Source of the DNA: a virus
IMG/VR virus record: IMGVR_UViG_3300032334_000315
Span: 1 to 64,000 of that record
Direction: 5' to 3' (one strand)
DNA length: 64,000 nucleotides
Below are positions 879 to 63,631 of the stretch, piece after piece (the first letter of the stretch is position 1; each line of letters starts with the position of its first letter). The notes under the pieces were generated by a model. That model worked only from the letters and a program-made list of their open reading frames with translations. It was not told the origin of the DNA and did no database searches. The position numbers and the translations under genes were made by a program.

Positions 879-952
879 TGGTGATCCTAACGGGACTTGA
901 ACCCGCATTCATCGTTTTAGAGACGACTGCATATCCGCCATGCTCTAGGATC
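879..952 (-). tRNA. tRNA-Arg (TCT), copy 1
   Basis: Acceptor GATCCTA pairs with TAGGATC. The anticodon stem GTCGT/ACGAT closes loop CTCTAAA, giving TCT for AGA codons. T loop TTCAAGT; CCA is encoded. A second, different TCT tRNA lies at 4403-4479. Confidence 0.9.
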
Positions 953-3598: not shown

Positions 3599-3676
3599 TG
3601 GTCCTCCGTATCGGATTTGAACCGATGATCTCCGCGCTTGAAAGGCGGGTATGTTGGACCGCTACACCAACGGAGG
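3599..3676 (-). tRNA. tRNA-Glu (TTC), irregular; TCA anticodon possible
   Basis: Acceptor CCTCCGT pairs perfectly with ACGGAGG and CCA is encoded. The anticodon arm is irregular. Loop CTTTCAA gives TTC, which fits a D loop resembling bacterial Glu tRNA (TAGCGGTC). One-base slippage to loop TTTCAAG would give TCA, reading UGA. Each alternative has one stem mismatch. Glu is preferred on overall similarity. Confidence 0.6.
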
Positions 3677-23628: not shown

Positions 23629-23636
23629 TATTTAGT
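23629..23636 (-). promoter_or_regulatory. late promoter variant ACTAAATA
   Basis: It matches six of eight positions of TATAAATA and stands upstream of the 247-aa structural gene, overlapping the TAA of the preceding gene. Confidence 0.45.
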
Positions 23637-25602
23637 CTCTGAGTGGTGGGTTCATTAGGATTGGCTCTTTGCCACCCTTCATTCCCTTTGACTTATCATT
23701 GCATACTTCACATGTCATTGACTTTTTACCTTCAGTGCATGTACACTTAGCTTCCTTCATAGAAGAAATTTGCTTGTTAGCCTTAGCTTGCATTACCTGC
23801 ATTTTCTTCTGGGCAATAGTCTTCTCAATTGATGCTTTCTTATCAGCCAGTTGCATTGCCATTGGATTCTCGGATGCTTCGTCCATACGACCATTAGCAG
23901 CAAGTCTCTCTTTGCGTCTTTGTGCCGCATAATCTGCTCCATTAGGTAACTTCTTTTTTGGCTCAGTCCAATTGTGTGCCTTCACTATTTTCTCTTTTTG
24001 ACCAGGACCAACATCGACAACCTTATATCCAATGTCTTTTGTTGTCTTCACTTTAGTCATGGTCTTAGCTTCAGCAAATCCTGGATCAGTCTCTTCAGTA
24101 GCAGGTACCTTTACCTTGTGGCCGTAATACTTACCGTAAGCCAACTTAGAACCCTTTTCACGATTGGTGCGCTTACGAAACTTATCAGGATCAGATGGTT
24201 GATTACCTTGCATTTGTCTACCGGCCTTATAACCATAAGATGCAAGAGTTCCTTTCGAGATTTCATCAATCTGAATCTCTTCTTCCATATTCTTATCACG
24301 ATCAGCACGATATGCCTTCATCTTCTCAGCCTTCTTATCGCGAGTTGCTTTGTTTGGCTTAGTGTCTGTACCATAATCCTTGACCACAACACCCTTGTGG
24401 ATAATCTTCAGATTCTTCTTATTACCACCATTACCATAAGTACCCTGGATCTCGTCCAGAGTTTCTTCTTTCATGGCTTTCTCTTTCTTTTCCTGTGACA
24501 TACCCTTATCACGGAACTTATTGGCCATACCAGCATACTTTTTGAAGATAGGACCAGAACGACCCTGAGCATCACCCATAGCTTTCTTAGCAGCCTTGTG
24601 TGCTGCGCTGTGATATGTATCGGTTGATAGCTCATCAATTTGAGTGTCTTCTTTAGCCAATTTACCTACAGCTCTTTTGATGCCAGCTGATCTCTTGTTT
24701 ATAGTATGAATGTGTGGATCCAACTTAGCCGCAGTGCCATCGGTACTGCCGGCGTTGTAACCAGCCTTTCCGAGACTTGATGCTGATTTGTTTACATAAG
24801 AACCAAGAGTAGCCTTTGATAACTCGTCTACCTGCTCAACATCTTCACTCACTTTTTTTTTTGTTATCTTATTCATAAGACGCTTTGCACCAATGGTTCT
24901 GTTGGCAATATCATTAGCCTGCTTGACATCATTAGGATCAGAGTTCTTGATAGATTTCTTAGCCTTCATAAGATACGCAAACTTCTTGATGTTTGTATCA
25001 AGAACCTCGTCTACTTGAACATCTTCCTTAGTTAGCTTATCGGTAGCCTTGTTGATTCCCTGACGACGCTTCCATGACTTATCAAAAGCCTTGTCTGCGG
25101 TCTGACTGTCCTTACGGCGCTGAGTTTCCTTAGAATAATCACCAGTCTTCTTTTGATGGTCGGCAATCTTGTTTGAACGCTCAGCATGACGACCAGTTGC
25201 AGCGGAGTTAGTTGCTACATCGGTTGCAGCCTTCTTGATATATGAACCCAAAGTCTTCTTTGATAGTTCATCTACCTGCTCAACTTCTTCGTGCTGCTGA
25301 CGATCCTTACCTGACATCTTTTCGCGACCACGAATCTTATCAGCGACAGATGGATTCATTCTGCTTAGATATTGGCCATCTCGGTTCTTAGCACCGACAG
25401 CCGCCGCAGCTGCGTTCTTCTTTTCCTTATTAGCAGGATTGCCTTCATCAATATTTTCTTCCTTACGAAGCATCTTGAAATCTTGGCCGTCAATTTTGCC
25501 GTTGTGGTTCTTGTCAATCTTGACCTGACCACCTTTGAGTGCTTCATTTACTGCATCAATTAGCGATTTGCTAATACCAAATTTATTTGGATCAATAGAC
25601 AT
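23632..25602 (-). CDS. internal head polyprotein with repeated xDE motif, 656 aa
   Basis: A Lys/Glu/Ala-rich disordered protein. Residues 30-41 (DKNHNGKIDGQD) form an EF-hand-like calcium loop. The motif E(E/D)xQ(V/I)DE(L/I)S recurs, with (V/I/L)DE at about 110-112, 197-199, 258-260, 322-324, 382-384 and 445-447, often followed by TLxSYxxKA. T4 prohead protease gp21 cuts after (L/I)xE, so these are candidate cleavage sites that would give several small internal peptides. A CxC..C..C cluster near residue 630 may bind zinc. Related repeats occur in the 151- and 918-aa proteins nearby. Confidence 0.75.
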   Translation of the reverse strand: MSIDPNKFGISKSLIDAVNEALKGGQVKIDKNHNGKIDGQDFKMLRKEENIDEGNPANKEKKNAAAAAVGAKNRDGQYLSRMNPSVADKIRGREKMSGKDRQQHEEVEQVDELSKKTLGSYIKKAATDVATNSAATGRHAERSNKIADHQKKTGDYSKETQRRKDSQTADKAFDKSWKRRQGINKATDKLTKEDVQVDEVLDTNIKKFAYLMKAKKSIKNSDPNDVKQANDIANRTIGAKRLMNKITKKKVSEDVEQVDELSKATLGSYVNKSASSLGKAGYNAGSTDGTAAKLDPHIHTINKRSAGIKRAVGKLAKEDTQIDELSTDTYHSAAHKAAKKAMGDAQGRSGPIFKKYAGMANKFRDKGMSQEKKEKAMKEETLDEIQGTYGNGGNKKNLKIIHKGVVVKDYGTDTKPNKATRDKKAEKMKAYRADRDKNMEEEIQIDEISKGTLASYGYKAGRQMQGNQPSDPDKFRKRTNREKGSKLAYGKYYGHKVKVPATEETDPGFAEAKTMTKVKTTKDIGYKVVDVGPGQKEKIVKAHNWTEPKKKLPNGADYAAQRRKERLAANGRMDEASENPMAMQLADKKASIEKTIAQKKMQVMQAKANKQISSMKEAKCTCTEGKKSMTCEVCNDKSKGMKGGKEPILMNPPLRD

Positions 25603-25603
25603 T

Positions 25604-26044
25604 TTAGTTACCTTTCTTTGTTGCTCTTAGCATCCAAGCATGTTTATTATGAATATCAATACGGTCTTGTAGGTAGTTTGCAATTCCTACCGCACCAGCA
25701 ACCTCCGCTGCTTTCTGTGCAGGAACAAGCGTAGCAATAACTGCATTGTTATCATCGTACAAACGATTTAACATACCAGCAGCATTAGGAACTGTTAGCT
25801 CATCCTGAATGGTTGATAGCTCACCAAAACGCTTGAATGAACCTGGCGCATAAACATTCAATGTGCGAATGTGTTCTGCAATACCGTCAACGGCTAGAAA
25901 CGCATCGGTGTATAGAGTTTCAAAAAATTCATGGTACTGTGAGAAGAATGGTCCTTCCACATTCCAGTGAAAGTTATGAGCCTTCAGATAAAACGCAAAG
26001 GTTGTAGCAAGTGATTTCTTGAGTAGTTCTGAAAGCTCATCCAT
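25604..26044 (-). CDS. dps: Dps-like ferritin, 146 aa
   Basis: Matches the Dps family in length and helices. The ferroxidase signature is NFHWNVEGPFF (His26), YHEFFE and DGIAEHIR (Asp53, Glu57). Dps oxidises Fe2+ with peroxide and coats DNA. Its presence among head-region genes suggests protection of packaged or injected DNA. It starts as TAATG on the preceding gene's stop and ends 2 nt before the polyprotein start. Confidence 0.9.
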   Translation of the reverse strand: MDELSELLKKSLATTFAFYLKAHNFHWNVEGPFFSQYHEFFETLYTDAFLAVDGIAEHIRTLNVYAPGSFKRFGELSTIQDELTVPNAAGMLNRLYDDNNAVIATLVPAQKAAEVAGAVGIANYLQDRIDIHNKHAWMLRATKKGN

Positions 26045-26382
26045 TACTTCTTTCCTTTTTTGCCTCTCTTAGGCTTCGGCGCATCTTCTGGCTCAATAAC
26101 AACCACTGGTGCTTCTTCCACAACAGGTTCAACGGTAGCCACTACTTCTTTAAGAACTTCTCCAACTTCCTTATCAAGCTTAGTAGCTTCTTCCACTACC
26201 TTAGCAAAAATCTCTTCTGTCTTAGCAGCCACTGTTTCTGCTGCCTTTACCTCTTCAACCGCGGCCTTTGCCTCTTGCTCATCAGCAGCAATAAACTCTT
26301 CATTTTTCCATGGCTTTGCGTATACCAAGTATCCAACAATTGCTAGAAAAATACCGCAACCAATAATTACATCCATATCCAT
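26044..26382 (-). CDS. membrane-anchored acidic protein, 112 aa
   Basis: Start at ATG 26382, with AGGAG 8 nt away; the TTG two codons earlier is too near. Residues 4-20 form a membrane helix. Residues 25-95 are an Ala/Glu/Val-rich coiled region. The tail KPKRGKKGKK is strongly basic and could touch DNA or RNA. I do not recognise the family. It lies between Dps and the nucleotidyltransferase-fusion gene. Confidence 0.68.
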   Translation of the reverse strand: MDMDVIIGCGIFLAIVGYLVYAKPWKNEEFIAADEQEAKAAVEEVKAAETVAAKTEEIFAKVVEEATKLDKEVGEVLKEVVATVEPVVEEAPVVVIEPEDAPKPKRGKKGKK

Positions 26383-26403
26383 TTTCAATTCTCCTGTGTT
26401 TAT

Positions 26404-29160
26404 TTACATTTTGTTTTTAAATATCTTACGATACATAAAATTGCCATTAGCTTTCTTAACTCTAACTACTTTATGGTCAGCATGTGTTTGCATGACATCT
26501 TCTGGTACACAATTAGGAACAGGCTTACCACCTTTATTCTTCATGCCAACTTGCTTATACCCTGTCCAACATTTTTCATCGACTTGTGTTTCTTCACTAC
26601 GGCAATTCCACTTACGCAATGCTAAGGCTTTACGAGATGGCTCACCGTTTGGCTTCTTCATCGGCCCTTCAACACCACCCATGCGAGCGCAGAAAGACTT
26701 ACGACGACCAGCAGCCTTACTACCAGCTTTTAGTTTAGATGGTGATGTTGTTACTGGTGCTTTTAGATTCCCACCATCTTTTCTGTTATAATAGTCTCTG
26801 CCCTTTTGAGTTAAACCACCAGTAGATGATTTATATCCCTTAGCATCAACCGCACGTTCTTGTAAATCTTCATCCAACTTAGCAGCAAAACCACCAGCGA
26901 TGAATGAGTTCACGCGGTTGAACGCACGATTGATATCATTTGACTCAGCCATTTCGCGAGCGAACACCTGATTCAAAACACCTTCAGATACACCAGACTT
27001 CTTTGCTTTCTTGCGTAGATCAGGATTTGGTTGACTATCAAGTTCCTTATTTACTACGTTATAGCGAACGCGAGAATATGTAGCCGGATCCTGTGTAGTC
27101 AAATCAATAAGCTTGTCTAATAGATCCGCAAGGTTCTTGCGAAGCTGTGGGCTTTGCAAAGCAAACTGCTTGCTACTACGCAACGCACGACGGTAACCTT
27201 GAAGCTCGGTTGTGTCAACAAGGCCAAGACGCAACAGAACATCCATCTTTTGATTCAAACGCTTTGATTGATTTGGATCTTCAGAATCTTCTTTTACAGT
27301 AGTTTTTTTCTTAGATGCTAATGCTGGATGATTGAGCCACGCACCACCTCGCTCGCCCCATTTACGGATCATTTTATTTACAAATTTTGGATCCTTAGAT
27401 GCTTTTACAGCAGCACTATCTTTTGTCCAATCCATCTTTTCATTAGCCTGTGTCATACCAGGAGGTGCGTCTGGATCATTCGGATTCCAATTGCGAGCAT
27501 TGAATGTTACTTCATCAAGCTTTCTACCACCAAGAGAAATTTTTGGCTTGTCCTTTGGAATACCGTGGGCTAGAACATTTTTGAATGCTGTCAAGCTTTT
27601 ACCAGCAGCAACAGTTAGCTTTTGTTTATCAGCAGGCAAACGTGTTCTATCAAATAAAGCCAACATTTTTCTTGCGTCAGATACAGAAATCTTTTCTTTG
27701 TGCTTATCACCAAATACAACATCATGCTCACCACGAGCAATGATGACCTTACGCATTTGATAGATGATATTGGTATCACCAGCATCTACAGCATCGGCTG
27801 CACTACCACGCGCTTCAGTACGCATACGAAATTGAGCTAGACGCTTACCACCACCGTGTGTTGTATGTTTTGGATTTGGCGCAGAACGATCAACCGTTGT
27901 AGGATCAACATCTGTTGCAACAATTTTTGTCGCGTCAATATGCAACGGACTATCGTGTTTGGTATCAGCCTTTGATTTTTCCCAATCTGATACTGAAATA
28001 TGTTTAGCTTTAGCCTGCTTGATATCTGATGCTCTGTCTTTTGCAGAACCTTCTTTACCTTCTAGGAACATGTGAAATGCCTCGTTTGTAGTTGAGCGAG
28101 CCTGCGCTACAGATGCCTGCGCTTTGCTACGGATACGTGGAAGAATGCGAGTGGCTATTCTATTGATAGCACCCTTTAGTGATTTACCAAAACGCTGTGT
28201 CAATGCATTATCAACTGAGATGCGCTGCGAACGTGATAGCGCATTATAATCTAGGTTCTTGCGGCCGCTTGCGCGAGCGCGAAGGATCATAATAGCAGCC
28301 TTACGCGCACGAAGGCGTAGGCGTTGACCAGCTGGCATCTGCTTTGATTTAAGCTTACGCAGACGAGCGAGACGCTTGCTCATGGACTTCATCTTTTGTG
28401 AACGCTTCTGGCGTTGCTGTGATGTTAGACCTTCGTGAACATCTTGTGGATCTTCATCGGTAATCATATCCAACATCATAGCATCTTCGTCACGGAGATC
28501 CAAATCGCTCATGTCGGTTAGCTTGTCGAGATATCTATCAATCTCAGCATCAGTTGGTAGTGGAATTTCTTCCTCAACAATTACAGATTCGGTCATTGTT
28601 TTTCCTAGACGCGATTGAATAATACGAATGATATCCTTTACATCTTTGTCGCTTAGACCATCTGGCATCTCTGCACGAATATTTGCAAAGTTACCTTCTC
28701 GCGCCCATGCGCGAATGTCAGATGCATGAATACCATCAGCATCACCAGAGCGTGTGTTTGTGATAGAGTGACGAGACTGGACGGTTACATTCTTAATATG
28801 AAAATCTTTACCATTTGCATTATCAACAAGCTTCTGGATTTGTTCTACTCTTTCATCACCCAATACGATATGAACGGTGTCGTAATGCTCTAATGATTTG
28901 AGAACACCAACCATGTTTGGCATAGATATGGGCGGCATATCAAATAGGCCTTTATGTCCAGGAAACATCTTGTTTAGGAATCGGATCTTTTCCTGTGGTG
29001 TAAATGGATTCTTCTTCTTGTCTACAGAGCGCGACACAAAAATCTTAGCGTCACTGTGAGTTTTTGTAGCCAATTTCAACACCGCATCCACAAGGTTCTT
29101 ATGTTCCTTGTGTGGTGGTTGAAATCTAGCAAGAGGTACAACAACGACAGATTTACTCAT
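26404..29160 (-). CDS. nucleotidyltransferase-domain virion protein, 918 aa
   Basis: Start at ATG 29160, 8 nt inside the upstream gene. Residues 1-170 resemble a NadM/cytidylyltransferase-like domain: VVVVPLARFQPPHKEH holds the (T/H)xxH-type loop, and GIHASDIR fits the later ISxxxxR motif. The remaining ~750 residues are basic and low-complexity, with a DUF6321-like segment (GRDYYNRKDGG, SFCARMGG) near the C-terminus and an ETQVDE motif like that of the 656-aa polyprotein. The layout suggests an enzyme domain carried on a capsid-internal scaffold protein. Substrate unknown. Confidence 0.72.
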   Translation of the reverse strand: MSKSVVVVPLARFQPPHKEHKNLVDAVLKLATKTHSDAKIFVSRSVDKKKNPFTPQEKIRFLNKMFPGHKGLFDMPPISMPNMVGVLKSLEHYDTVHIVLGDERVEQIQKLVDNANGKDFHIKNVTVQSRHSITNTRSGDADGIHASDIRAWAREGNFANIRAEMPDGLSDKDVKDIIRIIQSRLGKTMTESVIVEEEIPLPTDAEIDRYLDKLTDMSDLDLRDEDAMMLDMITDEDPQDVHEGLTSQQRQKRSQKMKSMSKRLARLRKLKSKQMPAGQRLRLRARKAAIMILRARASGRKNLDYNALSRSQRISVDNALTQRFGKSLKGAINRIATRILPRIRSKAQASVAQARSTTNEAFHMFLEGKEGSAKDRASDIKQAKAKHISVSDWEKSKADTKHDSPLHIDATKIVATDVDPTTVDRSAPNPKHTTHGGGKRLAQFRMRTEARGSAADAVDAGDTNIIYQMRKVIIARGEHDVVFGDKHKEKISVSDARKMLALFDRTRLPADKQKLTVAAGKSLTAFKNVLAHGIPKDKPKISLGGRKLDEVTFNARNWNPNDPDAPPGMTQANEKMDWTKDSAAVKASKDPKFVNKMIRKWGERGGAWLNHPALASKKKTTVKEDSEDPNQSKRLNQKMDVLLRLGLVDTTELQGYRRALRSSKQFALQSPQLRKNLADLLDKLIDLTTQDPATYSRVRYNVVNKELDSQPNPDLRKKAKKSGVSEGVLNQVFAREMAESNDINRAFNRVNSFIAGGFAAKLDEDLQERAVDAKGYKSSTGGLTQKGRDYYNRKDGGNLKAPVTTSPSKLKAGSKAAGRRKSFCARMGGVEGPMKKPNGEPSRKALALRKWNCRSEETQVDEKCWTGYKQVGMKNKGGKPVPNCVPEDVMQTHADHKVVRVKKANGNFMYRKIFKNKM

Positions 29161-30334
29161 CTTTCGGTGCCGCCTTTCTGAACGATCCTTGAGCAAAGTT
29201 TTGCATACTGAATACACGGCGCTTGACTAGCTTTGCGGTACCGTGCTTGCCGAGAAGAACATAGCCTTCTGGATTTGTCTTTACCAATGCACCAAACTCA
29301 TTCTCAAAATATCTGCGAATAGGTTGATATGTGTCCAGCTCGTCAATGATCTTGTCCTTGATATCAGCAAGCTTGTTGTGAACATCAAGGACGTTTGTGA
29401 TTAGAGCTTTATTGGATTCAATTTGACCAGTGATGGTATCATATACCACCTGCTTTGAAGCTTTACCTTTTTCACTAGCAGCCTTGTCAATGAACTTCTG
29501 GAGCTTCTCTTTCATGTACGCAAGGAAACCAGCATATGACTGCGTGGTGTTATTACGGATCACATAGTTGGCATATGCAAGGAAATGTGGATTCATCTCT
29601 TCGGATGAGATGTATGCAAACGCATCACCCGGTATAGATGCAAGGAGCTTATCAACCTCTGTGATATGGGCCTTCAAATGACCAACATGATCCAACGATG
29701 GCGCATCAATTGGCATCAGGAACACATGAGCATTCTTCTTCATGTCACGCGCTTGGATAGTCACGCGACTACCAGATGCATTGTACTTGGTGTGTGGTGC
29801 GAATCCAACAACCGACTTAGCAATCTCACGACCAAGCACCGAGTTCACAGGTACCGCATTGATAACTGTGTTTGGCTTGAACAACCAGTGCTGAACACCT
29901 TCAATGTCAACCTTCTTCAAGTCAACCTTAGCGAACATCATATCGCCTTGAAGGATCTCATTCTTGTTGTTTGTGATGTATGGGAAATATTCTAGAGCGA
30001 GCTTTAGTTTAGCTACGAGCCCTGGTGCGTGGCCGTGATTACGCTCAATATCCTCAACTGTAAAATTGACCTTAGGATCTTTGTTGAAGATTGATTTGGT
30101 CGCTACGAAGAACTTACCATTCTGATAGCCATAAAATACGCTAGGAGCACCGTCGATCTTAGTTTGATTCACAGTTTCAGGAATGCCCTTAATAAGGTCA
30201 TGGAAGTAACCACTGATCTTAGCAATGGACTTCTTTCCAGAAACATAAATCTCGTCTTCAATGTGGGTATAGTGCGACTTGTCTTCCTCAGACGAAAACG
30301 CAGCTTCTACCACGAAGCTTTTAAAACTTTTCAT
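29153..30334 (-). CDS. KxDG ligase-like protein (DUF6267-type), 393 aa
   Basis: The N-terminal FKSFVVEA is of a type seen on phage head proteins. KIDG (59-62 from this start) with SVFYG and FFVATKS after it matches motif I of covalent nucleotidyltransferases (DNA/RNA ligases). EILQGDMMF and the C-terminal HGTAKLVKRR are in place for motifs III/IV and V. I recall this as a DUF6267-like phage family. Sealing activity is unproven. The second of two ATGs is favoured by AGGAG spacing. A TATAAATA late promoter lies 66 nt upstream. Confidence 0.72.
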   Translation of the reverse strand: MKSFKSFVVEAAFSSEEDKSHYTHIEDEIYVSGKKSIAKISGYFHDLIKGIPETVNQTKIDGAPSVFYGYQNGKFFVATKSIFNKDPKVNFTVEDIERNHGHAPGLVAKLKLALEYFPYITNNKNEILQGDMMFAKVDLKKVDIEGVQHWLFKPNTVINAVPVNSVLGREIAKSVVGFAPHTKYNASGSRVTIQARDMKKNAHVFLMPIDAPSLDHVGHLKAHITEVDKLLASIPGDAFAYISSEEMNPHFLAYANYVIRNNTTQSYAGFLAYMKEKLQKFIDKAASEKGKASKQVVYDTITGQIESNKALITNVLDVHNKLADIKDKIIDELDTYQPIRRYFENEFGALVKTNPEGYVLLGKHGTAKLVKRRVFSMQNFAQGSFRKAAPKDE

Positions 30335-30402
30335 CATACTCCTAGCGGGATTGGCGTACCCTAACCGCGACCATGCAGGACTGCCTTAGCTTTCTGCTCG
30401 TC

Positions 30403-30410
30403 TATTTATA
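30403..30410 (-). promoter_or_regulatory. late promoter TATAAATA
   Basis: A perfect T4-type late octamer upstream of the ligase-like gene; expected leader about 60 nt. Confidence 0.75.
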
Positions 30411-30414
30411 ATAC

Positions 30415-30443
30415 TTGACAAATTAATATTTCCATGGTATAAT
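30415..30443 (+). promoter_or_regulatory. plus-strand sigma70-type promoter (antisense)
   Basis: TTGACA (30415-30420), a 17-bp spacer and TATAAT (30438-30443), then AAGGATGTTGTA and CCGG..TCAG at 30444-30464. It points into the 3' end of the minus-strand 273-aa gene. A near-copy lies at 61500-61528. Confidence 0.75.
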
Positions 30444-30467
30444 AAGGATGTTGTAACCGGTCAGATA

Positions 30468-31289
30468 CTATGCTTTCAAATCAATTCTAAATGCCAACCC
30501 TGTGATACCGCTTCTTGATTTACCTCTAATATCAAACTTAACTTTTGAACGAATACCCTGAACATATGTATCGTTGATTAAGTAGAATCCTTTAGGACTA
30601 ATGATGCTGTCTGCTACCGCACCTTTATACTCAGCAAGAGATATTTCACCTGTTAGTGCTTCATATAGCAATGCTTTTGTGTATTCTGGATCTCCTTCAA
30701 TATATTTCAAAAGAGAGTCCATCAACACCTCTTTGTTATTAGATAACCAATACTCATAGCTTTTATCTTGGATAATTTTAGTTCCTTTGATAAACTCTTT
30801 GATTACTTTTGGTTTTGCTTCTGTCAAGATTCTTTTTTTATTTGATTCGGATAACAAACGAGTTGGCATAACTTTCAACTCACTTATGATTGATTTTAGC
30901 ACTTTACTTTTATTTGAGTTTGGCACTTTTGTCGCAGCCGCTGCAAACAATTCGGCTGTCGATGCGCCTTGACCCGAAGCCAATTGCACACCGCCAGCCA
31001 TTTTTACAGATACCGTATGTATTTTAGTTCCAATTTTCAATACGACATCCGTTTTTGGTTCTGGTTTTGCCGCTATAGCAACACCAAATGGATTAGATGA
31101 ATCATCAGAATGCCAGGCAAGAACTTTTTTTGCACTACCAGCATACTTGTAGATATGCTTTACACAGTCGTCGGCCTGAGATAGAATAATCTCGGAATAA
31201 TCTCTTGTGTATTTTTTCTGTTCATTATTTTTGATCTTGATTTTTTCTACAATAGCCCATTCAAGATCAACGCCCTCTGATGCTGCCAT
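30468..31289 (-). CDS. phage protein of unknown function, nuclease-like features, 273 aa
   Basis: Residues 75-105 read KTDVVLKIGTKIHTVSVKMAGG, an acidic-strand-then-VxVK pattern that recalls PD-(D/E)xK nucleases, but a full motif set is not clear. The C-terminal half is helical and charged. I recall related proteins in marine T4-like phages with no function. It lies between two internal-head-type genes; its stop codon is followed after a few bases by the plus-strand promoter. Confidence 0.65.
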   Translation of the reverse strand: MAASEGVDLEWAIVEKIKIKNNEQKKYTRDYSEIILSQADDCVKHIYKYAGSAKKVLAWHSDDSSNPFGVAIAAKPEPKTDVVLKIGTKIHTVSVKMAGGVQLASGQGASTAELFAAAATKVPNSNKSKVLKSIISELKVMPTRLLSESNKKRILTEAKPKVIKEFIKGTKIIQDKSYEYWLSNNKEVLMDSLLKYIEGDPEYTKALLYEALTGEISLAEYKGAVADSIISPKGFYLINDTYVQGIRSKVKFDIRGKSRSGITGLAFRIDLKA

Positions 31290-31292
31290 AAT

Positions 31293-31748
31293 TTAGTCCC
31301 TACCTATTCCCATGGTACCTTTTTTTGACCTCATTGTTAATGGTCTACCGTGATTTCCTGGTGCATTATCGTCTTTTGCAGAAACTTTAGCTGTACCTGA
31401 TAGTTTCTTATCTGCCGTTTTCATACCGGCTTCACGATTTTTAACTCTCAGGCGATTTTTAGCTACACCACTAGGACCAAATGAATTTTGGTATTTATAA
31501 TCGTGGAGTCCTTTATCATAAGTTGCTGAATCTTTATAATCTTGTACAGCGCCTTTTGATAATTCATTTACCTGCTCGTAGTTTTCTTCAATGTACTTTT
31601 CAGTTAACTCAGGGAAATTTTCCATAACATAATCAAGAAAGTGTTCTACATCAAAATCAATGTCCATTTCGGTATCATTTACCTGCTCAGCAGATTCATT
31701 GATAGGAACAATCGGTCTACGACCGTTTGGTGTTAGAATATATGACAT
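31293..31748 (-). CDS. internal-head-like protein, 151 aa
   Basis: A charged, disordered protein with an acidic middle (FDVEHFLDYVMENFPEL). The segment YEQVNELSKGAVQDY is the same kind of motif as the xQVDELSKxTL repeats of the 656-aa polyprotein. The C-terminus is basic. GAAAGG lies before the ATG. Probably packaged inside the head with the other proteins carrying this motif; inference. Confidence 0.68.
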   Translation of the reverse strand: MSYILTPNGRRPIVPINESAEQVNDTEMDIDFDVEHFLDYVMENFPELTEKYIEENYEQVNELSKGAVQDYKDSATYDKGLHDYKYQNSFGPSGVAKNRLRVKNREAGMKTADKKLSGTAKVSAKDDNAPGNHGRPLTMRSKKGTMGIGRD

Positions 31749-31764
31749 GCTTATACCTTTCTTG

Positions 31765-32373
31765 TTATCCGTTGTAGCGGGTTATTCTTCCATCCTCATG
31801 GATTAGGAATGCTTCAAAATTAATCTTTGGAAACTCGGTATGCAGTTCAATGAACTTATCAAGGTTGGCCTTAGCGTCATCAAACATTCTAGCTACCTGA
31901 TACTTACCAGCTTTTAGTTGGTCACGAACAATCTGCTTCTTGGCCTCTGCACCTGGTGCCTTGATATTGCCTGCGCGATACACATGCACCTGCGTGATAT
32001 CAAAGCCATATTTTTTAAACGTATCAAGGAACAGCTTCTTATCGTCTAGATCCGCGCGAGCGGTACAGATGATAATACGCTTGTTAGGATGCGCACGGAA
32101 TCTGCTAATCATTTTCTTAGCGGTCTTGAATACAGTCTCAATTGGCTTTGCGGTATCAGCGAACACCTTAGATGATCGGAATTGAGCGAAGTCAAATTCC
32201 TCACCAGGTTTTAGCGCATACACATTGAACTCAGCTGGTGTCAATTTCTCAACAACCTTGCCATCTTTTCTGACGAGGACTTGTGTCGTGGTGCTGAATA
32301 GCGTGTCGTCAATGTCAAACACCGACAGACTACCAGAAACATCCTCAGCTATGAACTCGCGGAATTTTAGCAT
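31765..32373 (-). CDS. HAD-family phosphatase, 202 aa
   Basis: FDIDDTLF (Asp20, Asp22) is the HAD nucleophile motif. IICTARADLDD (about 100-110) and ARMFDDAKANLDK (about 160-172) give motifs II and IV, as in polynucleotide kinase 3'-phosphatase and related nucleotidases. The N-terminus FREFIAED is of the head-protein type and contains an IxE site. A 3'-end-healing phosphatase beside a ligase-like gene would make sense, but the substrate is unknown. A TATAAATA promoter ends 7 nt before its ATG, giving a leader of about 2 nt. Confidence 0.8.
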   Translation of the reverse strand: MLKFREFIAEDVSGSLSVFDIDDTLFSTTTQVLVRKDGKVVEKLTPAEFNVYALKPGEEFDFAQFRSSKVFADTAKPIETVFKTAKKMISRFRAHPNKRIIICTARADLDDKKLFLDTFKKYGFDITQVHVYRAGNIKAPGAEAKKQIVRDQLKAGKYQVARMFDDAKANLDKFIELHTEFPKINFEAFLIHEDGRITRYNG

Positions 32374-32380
32374 CGTATCC

Positions 32381-32388
32381 TATTTATA
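32381..32388 (-). promoter_or_regulatory. late promoter TATAAATA, near-leaderless, HAD phosphatase
   Basis: The octamer directly follows the terminator T run; 7 nt separate it from the ATG at 32373. An AGGA overlapping the end of the octamer would be upstream of the expected +1. Confidence 0.75.
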
Positions 32389-62199: not shown

Positions 62200-63591
62200 T
62201 TACATAAGGTTTGTGACCTGCACAAAGCGGTAGTAAAGGTTTGCGCGGGCATCGCCGAACGCACCGATAGCACCAGTGGCATCGTTCGTTGCGAATGGGT
62301 TTGCAACCATTCCGTAACGAGTCTTGAAGCCAATCTTTGGCTGGAAGGTGTTTTCACCAACTGCACGAACCATCTGAAGTGGTACGTATGGGCAATAGAA
62401 CAGACCAGCGTCAAATGCTGAAGAGCCCTTATAGCCGATTGTGAAATACTGCTTACCAGATGCAGAAGAGAAGTATGGATCAATGTAAACCTTGATACGG
62501 CCACCAAGAACACCAGCGAAGGTATTGCCTGTGTCGTCAACATTTAGATTGTTAGATAGAGCAGGTGTGTAATCAAGAACGCCTGCCATCTGAAGAGCCG
62601 AAGCTACGTCAGAACCGCAGATGATTACGTTACCCTTACCACGACGAGTTGCCTTAGCAATCTGGTTCGCTTCGCGCTCAATCTGGAACAATAGACCCTT
62701 GAACTTTTCTACCATCCAACGACCGTTAGAGTCAACGTCTAGGTTAAACGTACCTGTTGAAGTTACGTTTTCCTGAGCGCCGGCTGTAGCAGTATAGTTG
62801 ATTGTACGAACAACTTCACGGTTGATTTCAGAAAGGATTTCAGCAGCAAGAATGTTTGATAGTTCCTGCTCAGCATCAAGACCGTGAATGGCCTTAAGAT
62901 CCTGTGCAAGTTCCATTGTGTATTCTGCCTTGAGAGCGCGGCTAACTGCTGTTACAGCAACCTTCTCAATGCTGAATGCCATTTCCTGGAAATCGTTACC
63001 ACGTCCGTCACCAAGAGCTTCTGCGCGAGCAGTAGTCATACCTGTTGACATGTTATAGCCAGCAGCGCCAGCAGTTACACGACCAGTTGGATCAGAACCA
63101 GACTGAGAACGAACTGAAGTGTTAGCAACAACAAATGAAGACGCTGTATTGCCTTTAGCAGAACCAGAGAATGTGGTATTTGCTTCGTTGAATAGAGCTT
63201 CTGCACCTGTCTGGCTGTTATAACGTGAACGCATTGCGAAGATAAGGCCTGTTGGACCTGTCATTGGCTGTACGCCGCAGATATCATACGCAATTAGGTT
63301 AGGCATAGAACGACGAACCAATGAAATAAGTACTGGATCGAATGTGTCGATGGAACCAGCTGCGGCTGTAGATGACGATGCACCCATAGCGTTTGTTGGA
63401 GCTGTTTCACCTAGTAGTGATGGAGCCTGGTAACCACCAGATCCAAAACCTTGTTCGCGAGCTGACTTTTCCTGGTTTTCCAGAAGCTGTGCTACTACTG
63501 AGCGGCGGTGCGCATCCTTGATTGGAGATAGATCGCTATGCTCCAGGACTGGCTGCCACTTTTTCTGAACTTGTTCATTCAGAGATTGCAT
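62200..63591 (-). CDS. 23: major capsid protein, T4 gp23-like, 463 aa
   Basis: Start at ATG 63591 with AAGGAG. N-terminal prohead segment (1-65), then SLVRRSMPNLIAYDICGVQPMTGPTGLIFAMRSRY, a gp23 signature, and IEREANQIAKATRRGKGNVI in the P domain. The C-terminus AFGDARANLYYRFVQVTNLM is typical of gp23 in marine T4-like phages. The N-terminal segment is expected to be cut by the prohead protease at ...LLGETAP.. or close by. A strong terminator follows. Confidence 0.96.
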   Translation of the reverse strand: MQSLNEQVQKKWQPVLEHSDLSPIKDAHRRSVVAQLLENQEKSAREQGFGSGGYQAPSLLGETAPTNAMGASSSTAAAGSIDTFDPVLISLVRRSMPNLIAYDICGVQPMTGPTGLIFAMRSRYNSQTGAEALFNEANTTFSGSAKGNTASSFVVANTSVRSQSGSDPTGRVTAGAAGYNMSTGMTTARAEALGDGRGNDFQEMAFSIEKVAVTAVSRALKAEYTMELAQDLKAIHGLDAEQELSNILAAEILSEINREVVRTINYTATAGAQENVTSTGTFNLDVDSNGRWMVEKFKGLLFQIEREANQIAKATRRGKGNVIICGSDVASALQMAGVLDYTPALSNNLNVDDTGNTFAGVLGGRIKVYIDPYFSSASGKQYFTIGYKGSSAFDAGLFYCPYVPLQMVRAVGENTFQPKIGFKTRYGMVANPFATNDATGAIGAFGDARANLYYRFVQVTNLM

Positions 63592-63631
63592 GTTAGTTCT
63601 CCTTATTGATTTCAACTAATGTTATAAAAAC

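Follow-up and report, generated by a model that had tools for sequence, protein, structure and literature searches.

Can a T4-like virus bring into the cell, together with its DNA, enzymes that mend broken nucleic-acid ends before any phage gene is expressed? The question is raised by a gene cluster in the IMG/VR virus record IMGVR_UViG_3300032334_000315. The window analysed here is positions 1 to 64,000 of that record, a stretch of 64,000 nucleotides, and forms part of the 154,689-bp record (G000) of a T4-like virus with 181 gene calls, which carries the T4-type genes gp23 (62200-63615), UvsX, the gp41 helicase and a CobS-type ATPase. The cluster lies on the minus strand, downstream of gp41, and encodes in this order a HAD phosphatase, a 151-residue protein, a PD-(D/E)xK-type protein, a DUF6267 protein, a nucleotidyltransferase, a small membrane protein, Dps and a 656-residue protein with QVDE motifs. 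A first-pass annotation, made from the letters alone, had read the region as a possible set of enzymes that could travel in the head and repair nicked or damaged phage DNA on entry; every gene that it named is an open reading frame (ORF) of the minus strand, with the coordinates given below.

Our answer has two parts of different strength. That the locus encodes head-carried enzyme cargo is well supported, directly for the HAD and DUF6267 proteins; for the nucleotidyltransferase and the PD-type slot, the support comes from relatives. We further propose, with a probability of slightly under one half (about 0.48), that it is a head-cargo ('internal protein') operon whose enzymes act on nucleic-acid ends and nucleotides, and that they would reseal broken ends early. 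The argument starts from the N-termini of two proteins and the promoter boxes upstream of them (a slash marks the predicted cleavage point).

31765..32373, minus strand: HAD-superfamily phosphatase, 202 residues, with the T4-type capsid-targeting N-terminus MLKFREFIAE/D
32344..32373, minus strand: predicted capsid-targeting sequence (CTS) of the HAD protein, its first 10 codons; the predicted cut follows E10
32381..32388, minus strand: TATAAATA, the consensus of T4 late promoters, 8 bases before the start codon of HAD
29153..30337, minus strand: DUF6267 (PF19782) ligase-like protein, 394 residues (Pfam 6.1e-67)
30305..30334, minus strand: predicted CTS of the DUF6267 protein, MKSFKSFVVE/A from the second Met, in the register of T4 IPIII
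30403..30410, minus strand: TATAAATA, the late-promoter consensus again, 66 bases before the start codon of DUF6267

The T4 genes ipII and ipIII encode the N-terminus MKTYQEFIAEA (read from NC_000866). In IPIII, residues 4 and 7 serve targeting and residues 8 and 10 processing, and gp21 cleaves after L/I-x-E (PMC9026906). As a strict rule we took the exact T4 IPIII register, M..[FYW]..[FYW][ILV].E. Only the HAD and DUF6267 proteins follow it among the 181 gene calls, against 0.04 expected from shuffled N-termini; position 8 of the DUF6267 sequence is Val, where a stricter form of the pattern (M..[FY]..F[IL].E) has Ile or Leu. In a set of 93 DUF6267 homologues with identities below 90%, 41 carry the strict CTS, against 0.0002 for shuffled sequences and 13/509 neighbouring genes (Fisher 2e-26), and 65 carry a looser version; a second, separate collection of the family gives 14/33. 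Elsewhere the strict CTS is found in 9 of 23 HAD homologues, 5 of 54 nucleotidyltransferases and 8 of 81 genes in the slot upstream of DUF6267. The genome also encodes a gp21-type prohead protease, outside the window at G000:64777-65433 (Peptidase_S77 PF03420, 4e-33; PHROG head maturation protease, 3.9e-78). TATAAATA occurs nine times in the window, always on the minus (coding) strand, with 2.9 copies expected.

These counts bear on a rival explanation of the gene, that DUF6267 serves replication as an ordinary ligase inside the cell, is placed beside late genes, and has its CTS-like N-termini by coincidence. Its position directly downstream of gp41 in several phages would suit such a role, cyanomyoviruses are described without a recognised gp30 ligase (PMC2984593), and some cyanophage members of the family have no CTS. 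Against this, the exact-register CTS is far beyond chance in both collections of homologues, and Stenotrophomonas phage DLP6 has a gp30-type ligase in addition to a CTS-bearing DUF6267 protein. We consider this explanation very improbable.

Head carriage is further supported by published virion proteomes of relatives, in which the next gene of the cluster is represented.

26404..29160, minus strand: HIGH-superfamily (NMNAT/cytidylyltransferase-like) nucleotidyltransferase with a long basic tail, including DUF6321 and a QVDE-CWTGYKQVGMKNKGGKPVPNCV module

The S-SM1 nucleotidyltransferase (T4-GC190) was detected in purified virions (PMC3037559); it starts with MKKFSAFLNEA and its gene sits in a cassette of PD-type, DUF6267 and nucleotidyltransferase genes, where the PD-type protein SSM1_188 belongs to PHROG 22045, as here. 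Virions of S-CREM2 contained gp154 (the nucleotidyltransferase), gp155, gp156 and gp160 (PMC10665884); gp154 starts with MKNFSSFLTEA, and gp156 (L180:6013-6726), annotated as hypothetical, is a Pol-beta-type protein of the NTP_transf_2 family. In S-SCSM1, the annotation lists the products of five adjacent genes, ORF89-93, as virion proteins (PMC9602691); ORF90 shows the PD-type motif SPADIY...VSLKK and ORF91 is an NMNAT with the N-terminus MKSFLQFLKEA. A CTS is thus present on all three virion-detected nucleotidyltransferases. The claim that the set is head cargo is supported by the CTS, the late-type box, the gp21-type protease and these mass spectrometry data on homologues. The virion list of S-CREM2 (PMC10665884 Table 3) additionally contains ORF12, labelled a CRISPR-Cas9 nuclease, and a SAM hydrolase.

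In our window the nucleotidyltransferase probably starts at the ATG at 29160, where it shares eight bases with the end of DUF6267, stop codon included, rather than at the GTG at 29217 of the longest ORF. In the ORF as listed, DUF6321 spans 796-870 and QVDE is at residue 878. The N-terminal domain is HIGH/NMNAT-like (PHROG 3041 'cytidyltransferase', 7.8e-38) and contains both superfamily motifs, GxFxPxxxGH and (S/T)xxxR; the family consensus reads GRFNPPTxGH and SASKMR, with H20, P52, G101 and R104 invariant. Its weak PDB matches are shared among NMNAT, PPAT, RibF, NadR and MJ0951. The gene with its basic tail is real, and its product is an NMNAT-like HIGH enzyme, no end-healing polymerase. It resembles the virion NMNAT/cytidylyltransferase of T4-like cyanophages (S-SM1, S-SCSM1, S-CREM2, S-CBWM1) in its homologous domain and in its neighbourhood, and theirs were detected in virions. 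In the published work, however, that enzyme was treated alone, as an NAD regulator, whereas DUF6267, the PD-type protein and the CTS context were not described.

The NMNAT-like protein, as the part repeatedly found in virions, could also point to a take-over of NAD and nucleotides, or to counter-defence: an injected NMNAT-like core would restore or raise NAD+, and DUF6267, the HAD protein and the kinase of other phages would have nucleotides, not nucleic-acid ends, as substrates or be adenylylating effectors. NMNAT, NadR and PPAT structures are among the weak matches just mentioned, kinase-nucleotidyltransferase fusions resemble the layout of NadR, and NAD regulation is favoured by the authors of PMC9602691 and PMC10665884. 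However, Pfam and PHROG assign the kinases to Zeta_toxin/AAA_33 and PNK-like families, with no ribosylnicotinamide-kinase model among the matches listed, NMN as substrate is an assumption, and the KxDG/EGxV/KxxxR conservation and PD-type neighbours are left unexplained. We hold this explanation to be unlikely.

Three motifs of DUF6267 speak for a ligase-like protein.

30149..30160, minus strand: KIDG (K60-G63), putative nucleotidyl-lysine motif I; K60 and D62 invariant in 81 homologues
29258..29269, minus strand: EGYV (E357-V360), putative motif IV; E357, G358 and V360 invariant; identical to EGYV of T4 Rnl2
29219..29233, minus strand: KLVKR (K369-R373), putative motif V; K369 and R373 invariant

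The invariant columns of this 81-member alignment are K60, D62, K81, Q130-G131, P155-N156, H182, N257, E357-G358, V360, K369, R373, F376 and N380, and D132 is kept in at least 90% of the sequences. A further set has K.DGAP in 32/33 members, EG[YF]V in 32/33 and K[LIM][VI].R in 33/33. The family shows residues in the order of the ligase-type motifs: KxDG for motif I, a basic residue for Ia, D/E for III, EGxV for IV and K for V. K81, 21 positions past K60, matches the place of the motif Ia arginine of T4 Rnl2, and the spacing of the motifs is comparable to that of Rnl2 except for a helical insertion at about 213-335. In the AlphaFold2 model (predicted local distance difference test, pLDDT, 87; predicted template modelling score 0.84), this insertion of about 120 residues lies between motifs IIIa and IV. 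Foldseek searches of the PDB repeatedly returned RNA ligases (8ucg, 6vt0, 1xdn) at sub-significant level, the best ligase at E 0.68; in BFVD, members of the family came first, and the next match to an enzyme with a name was a T4-type RNA ligase, from Panulirus argus virus 1 (E 0.03). From the motifs and these sub-significant matches we infer a ligase fold, and DUF6267 probably works like a ligase, with no claim of membership in the Rnl2 family. Of the original description as a KxDG ligase-like protein, the motif order and the invariant residues, including the conservation of KIDG, hold; profile comparison fails, as told below, and the fold matches stay sub-significant.

Since the recurrent fold matches are mostly RNA ligases, the cargo could alternatively serve RNA: a head-delivered ligase-like protein, phosphatase and, in other phages, kinase would mend, early in infection, tRNAs cut by host anticodon nucleases. 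T4 Pnkp and Rnl1 repair cut tRNAs and are made de novo; the T4 annotation likewise has RnlA with PseT mending tRNA in prr hosts. The relatives of the kinase are the PNK, PSTK and zeta families, and our phage has 20 tRNA genes. The PD-(D/E)xK protein, like the long basic tails, speaks rather for DNA, the searches found no sequence-level relation of DUF6267 to any RNA ligase family, and HAD or kinase is missing from most DUF6267 loci. RNA repair seems to us doubtful. Incoming phage DNA is the substrate that we favour over RNA, although the data do not decide.

By tblastn, DUF6267 is found in 461 phage records, mostly of T4-like cyanophages; other carriers are pelagiphage HTVC008M, Methylophilales phages and phage DLP6. 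A CTS is present on the DUF6267 proteins of Methylophilales phage Melnitz and phage C48C1, as on that of DLP6. A cellular origin was considered and set aside, as nearly all genome contigs with matches come from metagenome-assembled bins and are probably of phage origin. Our literature search, whose coverage leaves out many subscription journals, found no paper on DUF6267.

The two genes at the upstream end of the cluster and the protein between them add further predicted activities.

32302..32316, minus strand: DIDDT (D20-T24), HAD motif I; D20 and D22 invariant, with T24 kept in at least 90%
30468..31289, minus strand: PD-(D/E)xK-type protein, 273 residues (phrog_22045)
31047..31058, minus strand: PKTD motif, residues 78-81 of the PD-(D/E)xK-type protein, invariant
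31293..31748, minus strand: acidic/basic protein of 151 residues with QVNE, in an exchangeable segment

The HAD protein has all four motifs of its superfamily (DxDxT, T-A-R, K and DD); over 17 homologues, D20, D22, T104, R106, D165 and D166 are invariant and K145 is present in at least 90%, and the residues of DIDDT are conserved, as the earlier reading requires. Its only specific link to PNKP is PHROG 415 'polynucleotide kinase' (1.1e-8), and a PDB sequence search with the family gave no useful match. In the PD-type protein, PKTD-x12-SxK(94-96)-x5-QLxS and E10 are invariant in 11 homologues, in agreement with the earlier label; Ser at the acidic place preceding xK makes it a variant of the canonical PD-(D/E)xK motif. 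Its AlphaFold2 model (pLDDT 84) retrieves archaeal Holliday-junction (Hjc) resolvases at PDB ranks 1-9, sub-significantly (E 0.24-0.66), and the PDB sequence search with this family gave nothing useful either.

The PD-type gene occupies a variable position. In other phages a polymorphic PD-(D/E)xK-type gene is often directly upstream of DUF6267; the motif pattern is present in 17 of 65 genes at this -1 position against 1 of 170, a count that is supportive but no test, as the pattern was drawn up after examples were known. Three contigs (L145, L142 and L140), otherwise about 90-95% identical, give no blastn match over about 30476-31556: unrelated sequence replaces the PD-type gene and most of the 151-residue gene there, and conserved neighbours flank the slot. 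In L095 and L097, a different protein of 128 residues with EQVDELSRKTLGSY takes the place of the 151-residue protein. The wholesale swap of the PD gene and its neighbour, among relatives whose DUF6267 proteins are 98-99% identical, fits what is expected of arms-race cargo. It is thus conceivable that the CTS simply addresses unrelated arms-race effectors to the head, with no single pathway behind them. T4 IPI acts against GmrSD, and HAD, kinase and Pol-beta parts occur patchily; internal proteins of T-even phages are hypervariable (PMC3012670, PMC9026906). On the other hand, DUF6267 and the nucleotidyltransferase are strongly coupled, even fused in several genomes, and every part is a nucleic-acid or nucleotide enzyme. 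We find such a mixed cargo quite unlikely.

The coupling was measured on 37 DUF6267 loci that were retrieved without HAD as bait and had flanks of sufficient length. A nucleotidyltransferase is nearby in 31 of them, HAD in 7, Dps in 6 and a PNK/zeta-like P-loop kinase in 5. Fusions of DUF6267 and nucleotidyltransferase, in either order, were found in several contigs; L030 and L059 have a nucleotidyltransferase with a kinase domain and an adjoining HAD gene, and in L093 a Pol-beta-type domain is joined to the NMNAT-like protein. T4-like phages of marine and freshwater origin repeatedly carry the gene set. The postulated nucleic-acid end processing is consistent with this recurrence of PNK/zeta-like kinases, HAD and Pol-beta-type nucleotidyltransferases near DUF6267, but not in the form of a fixed kit that includes HAD. 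One locus gives a separate observation: at L051:3818-5074, DUF6267 is followed by a PNK/zeta-like kinase whose N-terminus MKRFSFFLQEE fits the CTS and by a 5'-nucleotidase-type HAD with the CTS-like N-terminus MKTLLEYLSEQ.

We favour end repair because it unites the ligase motifs with the phosphatase, kinase, nuclease and polymerase-type domains, and the healing and sealing of phage DNA can be pictured as follows. The cargo proteins would be synthesised late, enter the prohead core through their CTS, be cleaved behind E10 by the phage's gp21-type protease, and be packed with the DNA and then ejected into the host. There, broken ends would be processed and resealed ahead of phage gene expression: the PD-(D/E)xK-type protein may trim or resolve them, the HAD phosphatase (in other phages also a PNK/zeta-like kinase) would heal the termini, DUF6267 would become adenylylated at K60 and seal, and the NMNAT-like enzyme might supply or regenerate the nucleotide cofactor.

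Known systems resemble parts of this locus. The T4 internal proteins IPI, IPII and IPIII, together with Alt, share the 10-residue N-terminal CTS, the same register and the Glu at the predicted cleavage site, as well as a genome-encoded protease of gp21 type, promoter boxes of late type and variable, exchangeable content; their T4 cargo consists of small inhibitors or an ADP-ribosyltransferase, unlike the putative nucleic-acid and nucleotide enzymes found here. T4 Pnkp (pseT) with Rnl1 and Rnl2 offers the pairing of a phosphatase (a kinase in other phages) with a KxDG protein, and Rnl2 in particular the identical EGYV and the recurrent sub-significant fold matches. They differ in that the proteins here are separate and head-targeted, in the helical insertion of DUF6267, and in their sequences, which are not significantly similar to either Rnl2 or PseT. 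In concept only, the base-excision-repair enzymes of African swine fever virus (repair system, Pol X, DNA ligase) are similar, as a particle-carried repair that precedes replication (PMC12172490), but that is a eukaryotic virus with unrelated proteins and another packaging route. Our search of the head-cargo literature retrieved papers on the T4 head and on giant phages and, with many subscription journals uncovered, no phage virion repair set. The first-pass annotation knew of no described kit of this kind; for phages our search agrees, with the qualification that virion-associated NMNAT-like proteins were reported earlier (PMC9602691, PMC10665884) and that the set of African swine fever virus is known (PMC12172490).

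Several results weigh against the head-cargo and end-repair reading. DUF6267, both as the whole protein and with the helical insertion removed, was compared by hhalign with T4 Rnl2, T4 gp30, the DLP6 ligase and unrelated control families. The EGYV segment alone aligns and the ligase scores equal those of the controls, so that we claim no sequence homology to any ligase family. A PDB sequence search with DUF6267 gave nothing useful, and no PDB fold match was below 1e-3. The HAD profile scored 4.8 bits on T4 PseT, against 2.5 for the best shuffle, which is too weak to call the protein a PNKP proper: the HAD motifs of the original PNKP-like label are conserved, its PNKP part is weak. With HAD in only 7 of the 37 unbiased loci, a complete kit is not conserved. 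DUF6267 of S-SM1 and Syn9 has no CTS, as in several cyanophages. Published virion mass spectrometry reports neither DUF6267 nor HAD, and in S-SM1 GC71 (DUF6267) is named 'hypothetical' even though its neighbour GC190 was detected. The proteome authors themselves caution that NMNAT-like proteins might be soluble carry-over from the lysate. Finally, the enzymatic activity of every member is a prediction from its residues.

The DNA ligases of these phages are a related matter. It was noted that cyanomyoviruses have no g30, and a substitute from the host or a distant homologue was suggested (PMC2984593). The ligase models PF01068 and PF01653 had no match in P-HM1, HTVC008M, C48C1, Melnitz, S-RIM50 and G000, while T4 and DLP6 match PF01068; in total, 5 of the 6 DUF6267 phages tested, plus G000, are without either. 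PF09414 was not found in G000 either, a genome that is possibly incomplete, which applies to all three models. DUF6267 is thus a candidate for the distant g30 homologue, but DLP6 carries both kinds of protein and therefore their roles can differ. It is tempting to go further, and to see in DUF6267 an unrecognised ligase family, delivered by the capsid with a cofactor-recharging NMNAT and exchangeable end-cleaning enzymes, which supplies the missing ligase of marine phages and repairs the genome on entry; in this full form we think the idea improbable. T4-like phages are among the commonest viruses of the ocean. If DUF6267 were indeed a head-delivered ligase, marine phages would possess a step of repair or counter-defence that precedes gene expression, and the unexplained NMNAT of cyanophage virions would gain a partner.

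The remaining genes of the cluster lie downstream of the nucleotidyltransferase.

26044..26388, minus strand: membrane-anchored, K/E-rich small protein of 114 residues, between the nucleotidyltransferase and Dps; spanin-like matches weak
25604..26044, minus strand: Dps-like ferritin, 146 residues (Ferritin PF00210, 5.7e-21; PHROG 3636, 1.2e-29)
23632..25602, minus strand: basic protein of 656 residues with five Q[VI]DE modules (phrog_5709, 4.5e-9)

None of 13 Dps homologues has a CTS. Across the locus no near relative was found by megablast of 20 kb against phages, no defence family by PADLOC, and no NCBIfam match for the window proteins. Head-type N-termini or QVDE had been named as the marks of head proteins; the CTS of HAD and DUF6267 is beyond chance, but QVDE was rejected as a head label. 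It is found in few related proteins only, one nucleotidyltransferase among 72 distinct ones fits the longer QVDE pattern, none of the virion data examined concerns a QVDE protein of this kind, and the 151-residue neighbour reads QVNE. QVDE is instead a candidate prohead-protease site, and the Q[VI]DE modules of the 656-residue protein, which resemble [I/V]-x-E, could be where it is cut into basic peptides. The five repeats of that protein follow E-Q-[VI]-D-E-[LI]-S..TL.SY..KA, and related repeats occur in Caulobacter phage Cr30, P-TIM68 and S-SKS1. The tail of the nucleotidyltransferase contains another recurrent module, CWxGYKxxGxKxKGGKxVPNCV (C-terminal part of 26404-29160, and homologues in L004, L005, L001 and L180), which often adjoins DUF6321 (KSFCARM...RKWNC). 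Outside the cluster, two tRNA genes at window positions 879-952 and 3599-3676 have the anticodons cta and tca (called Pyl and SeC by ARAGORN) and are possibly stop-codon-reading tRNAs.

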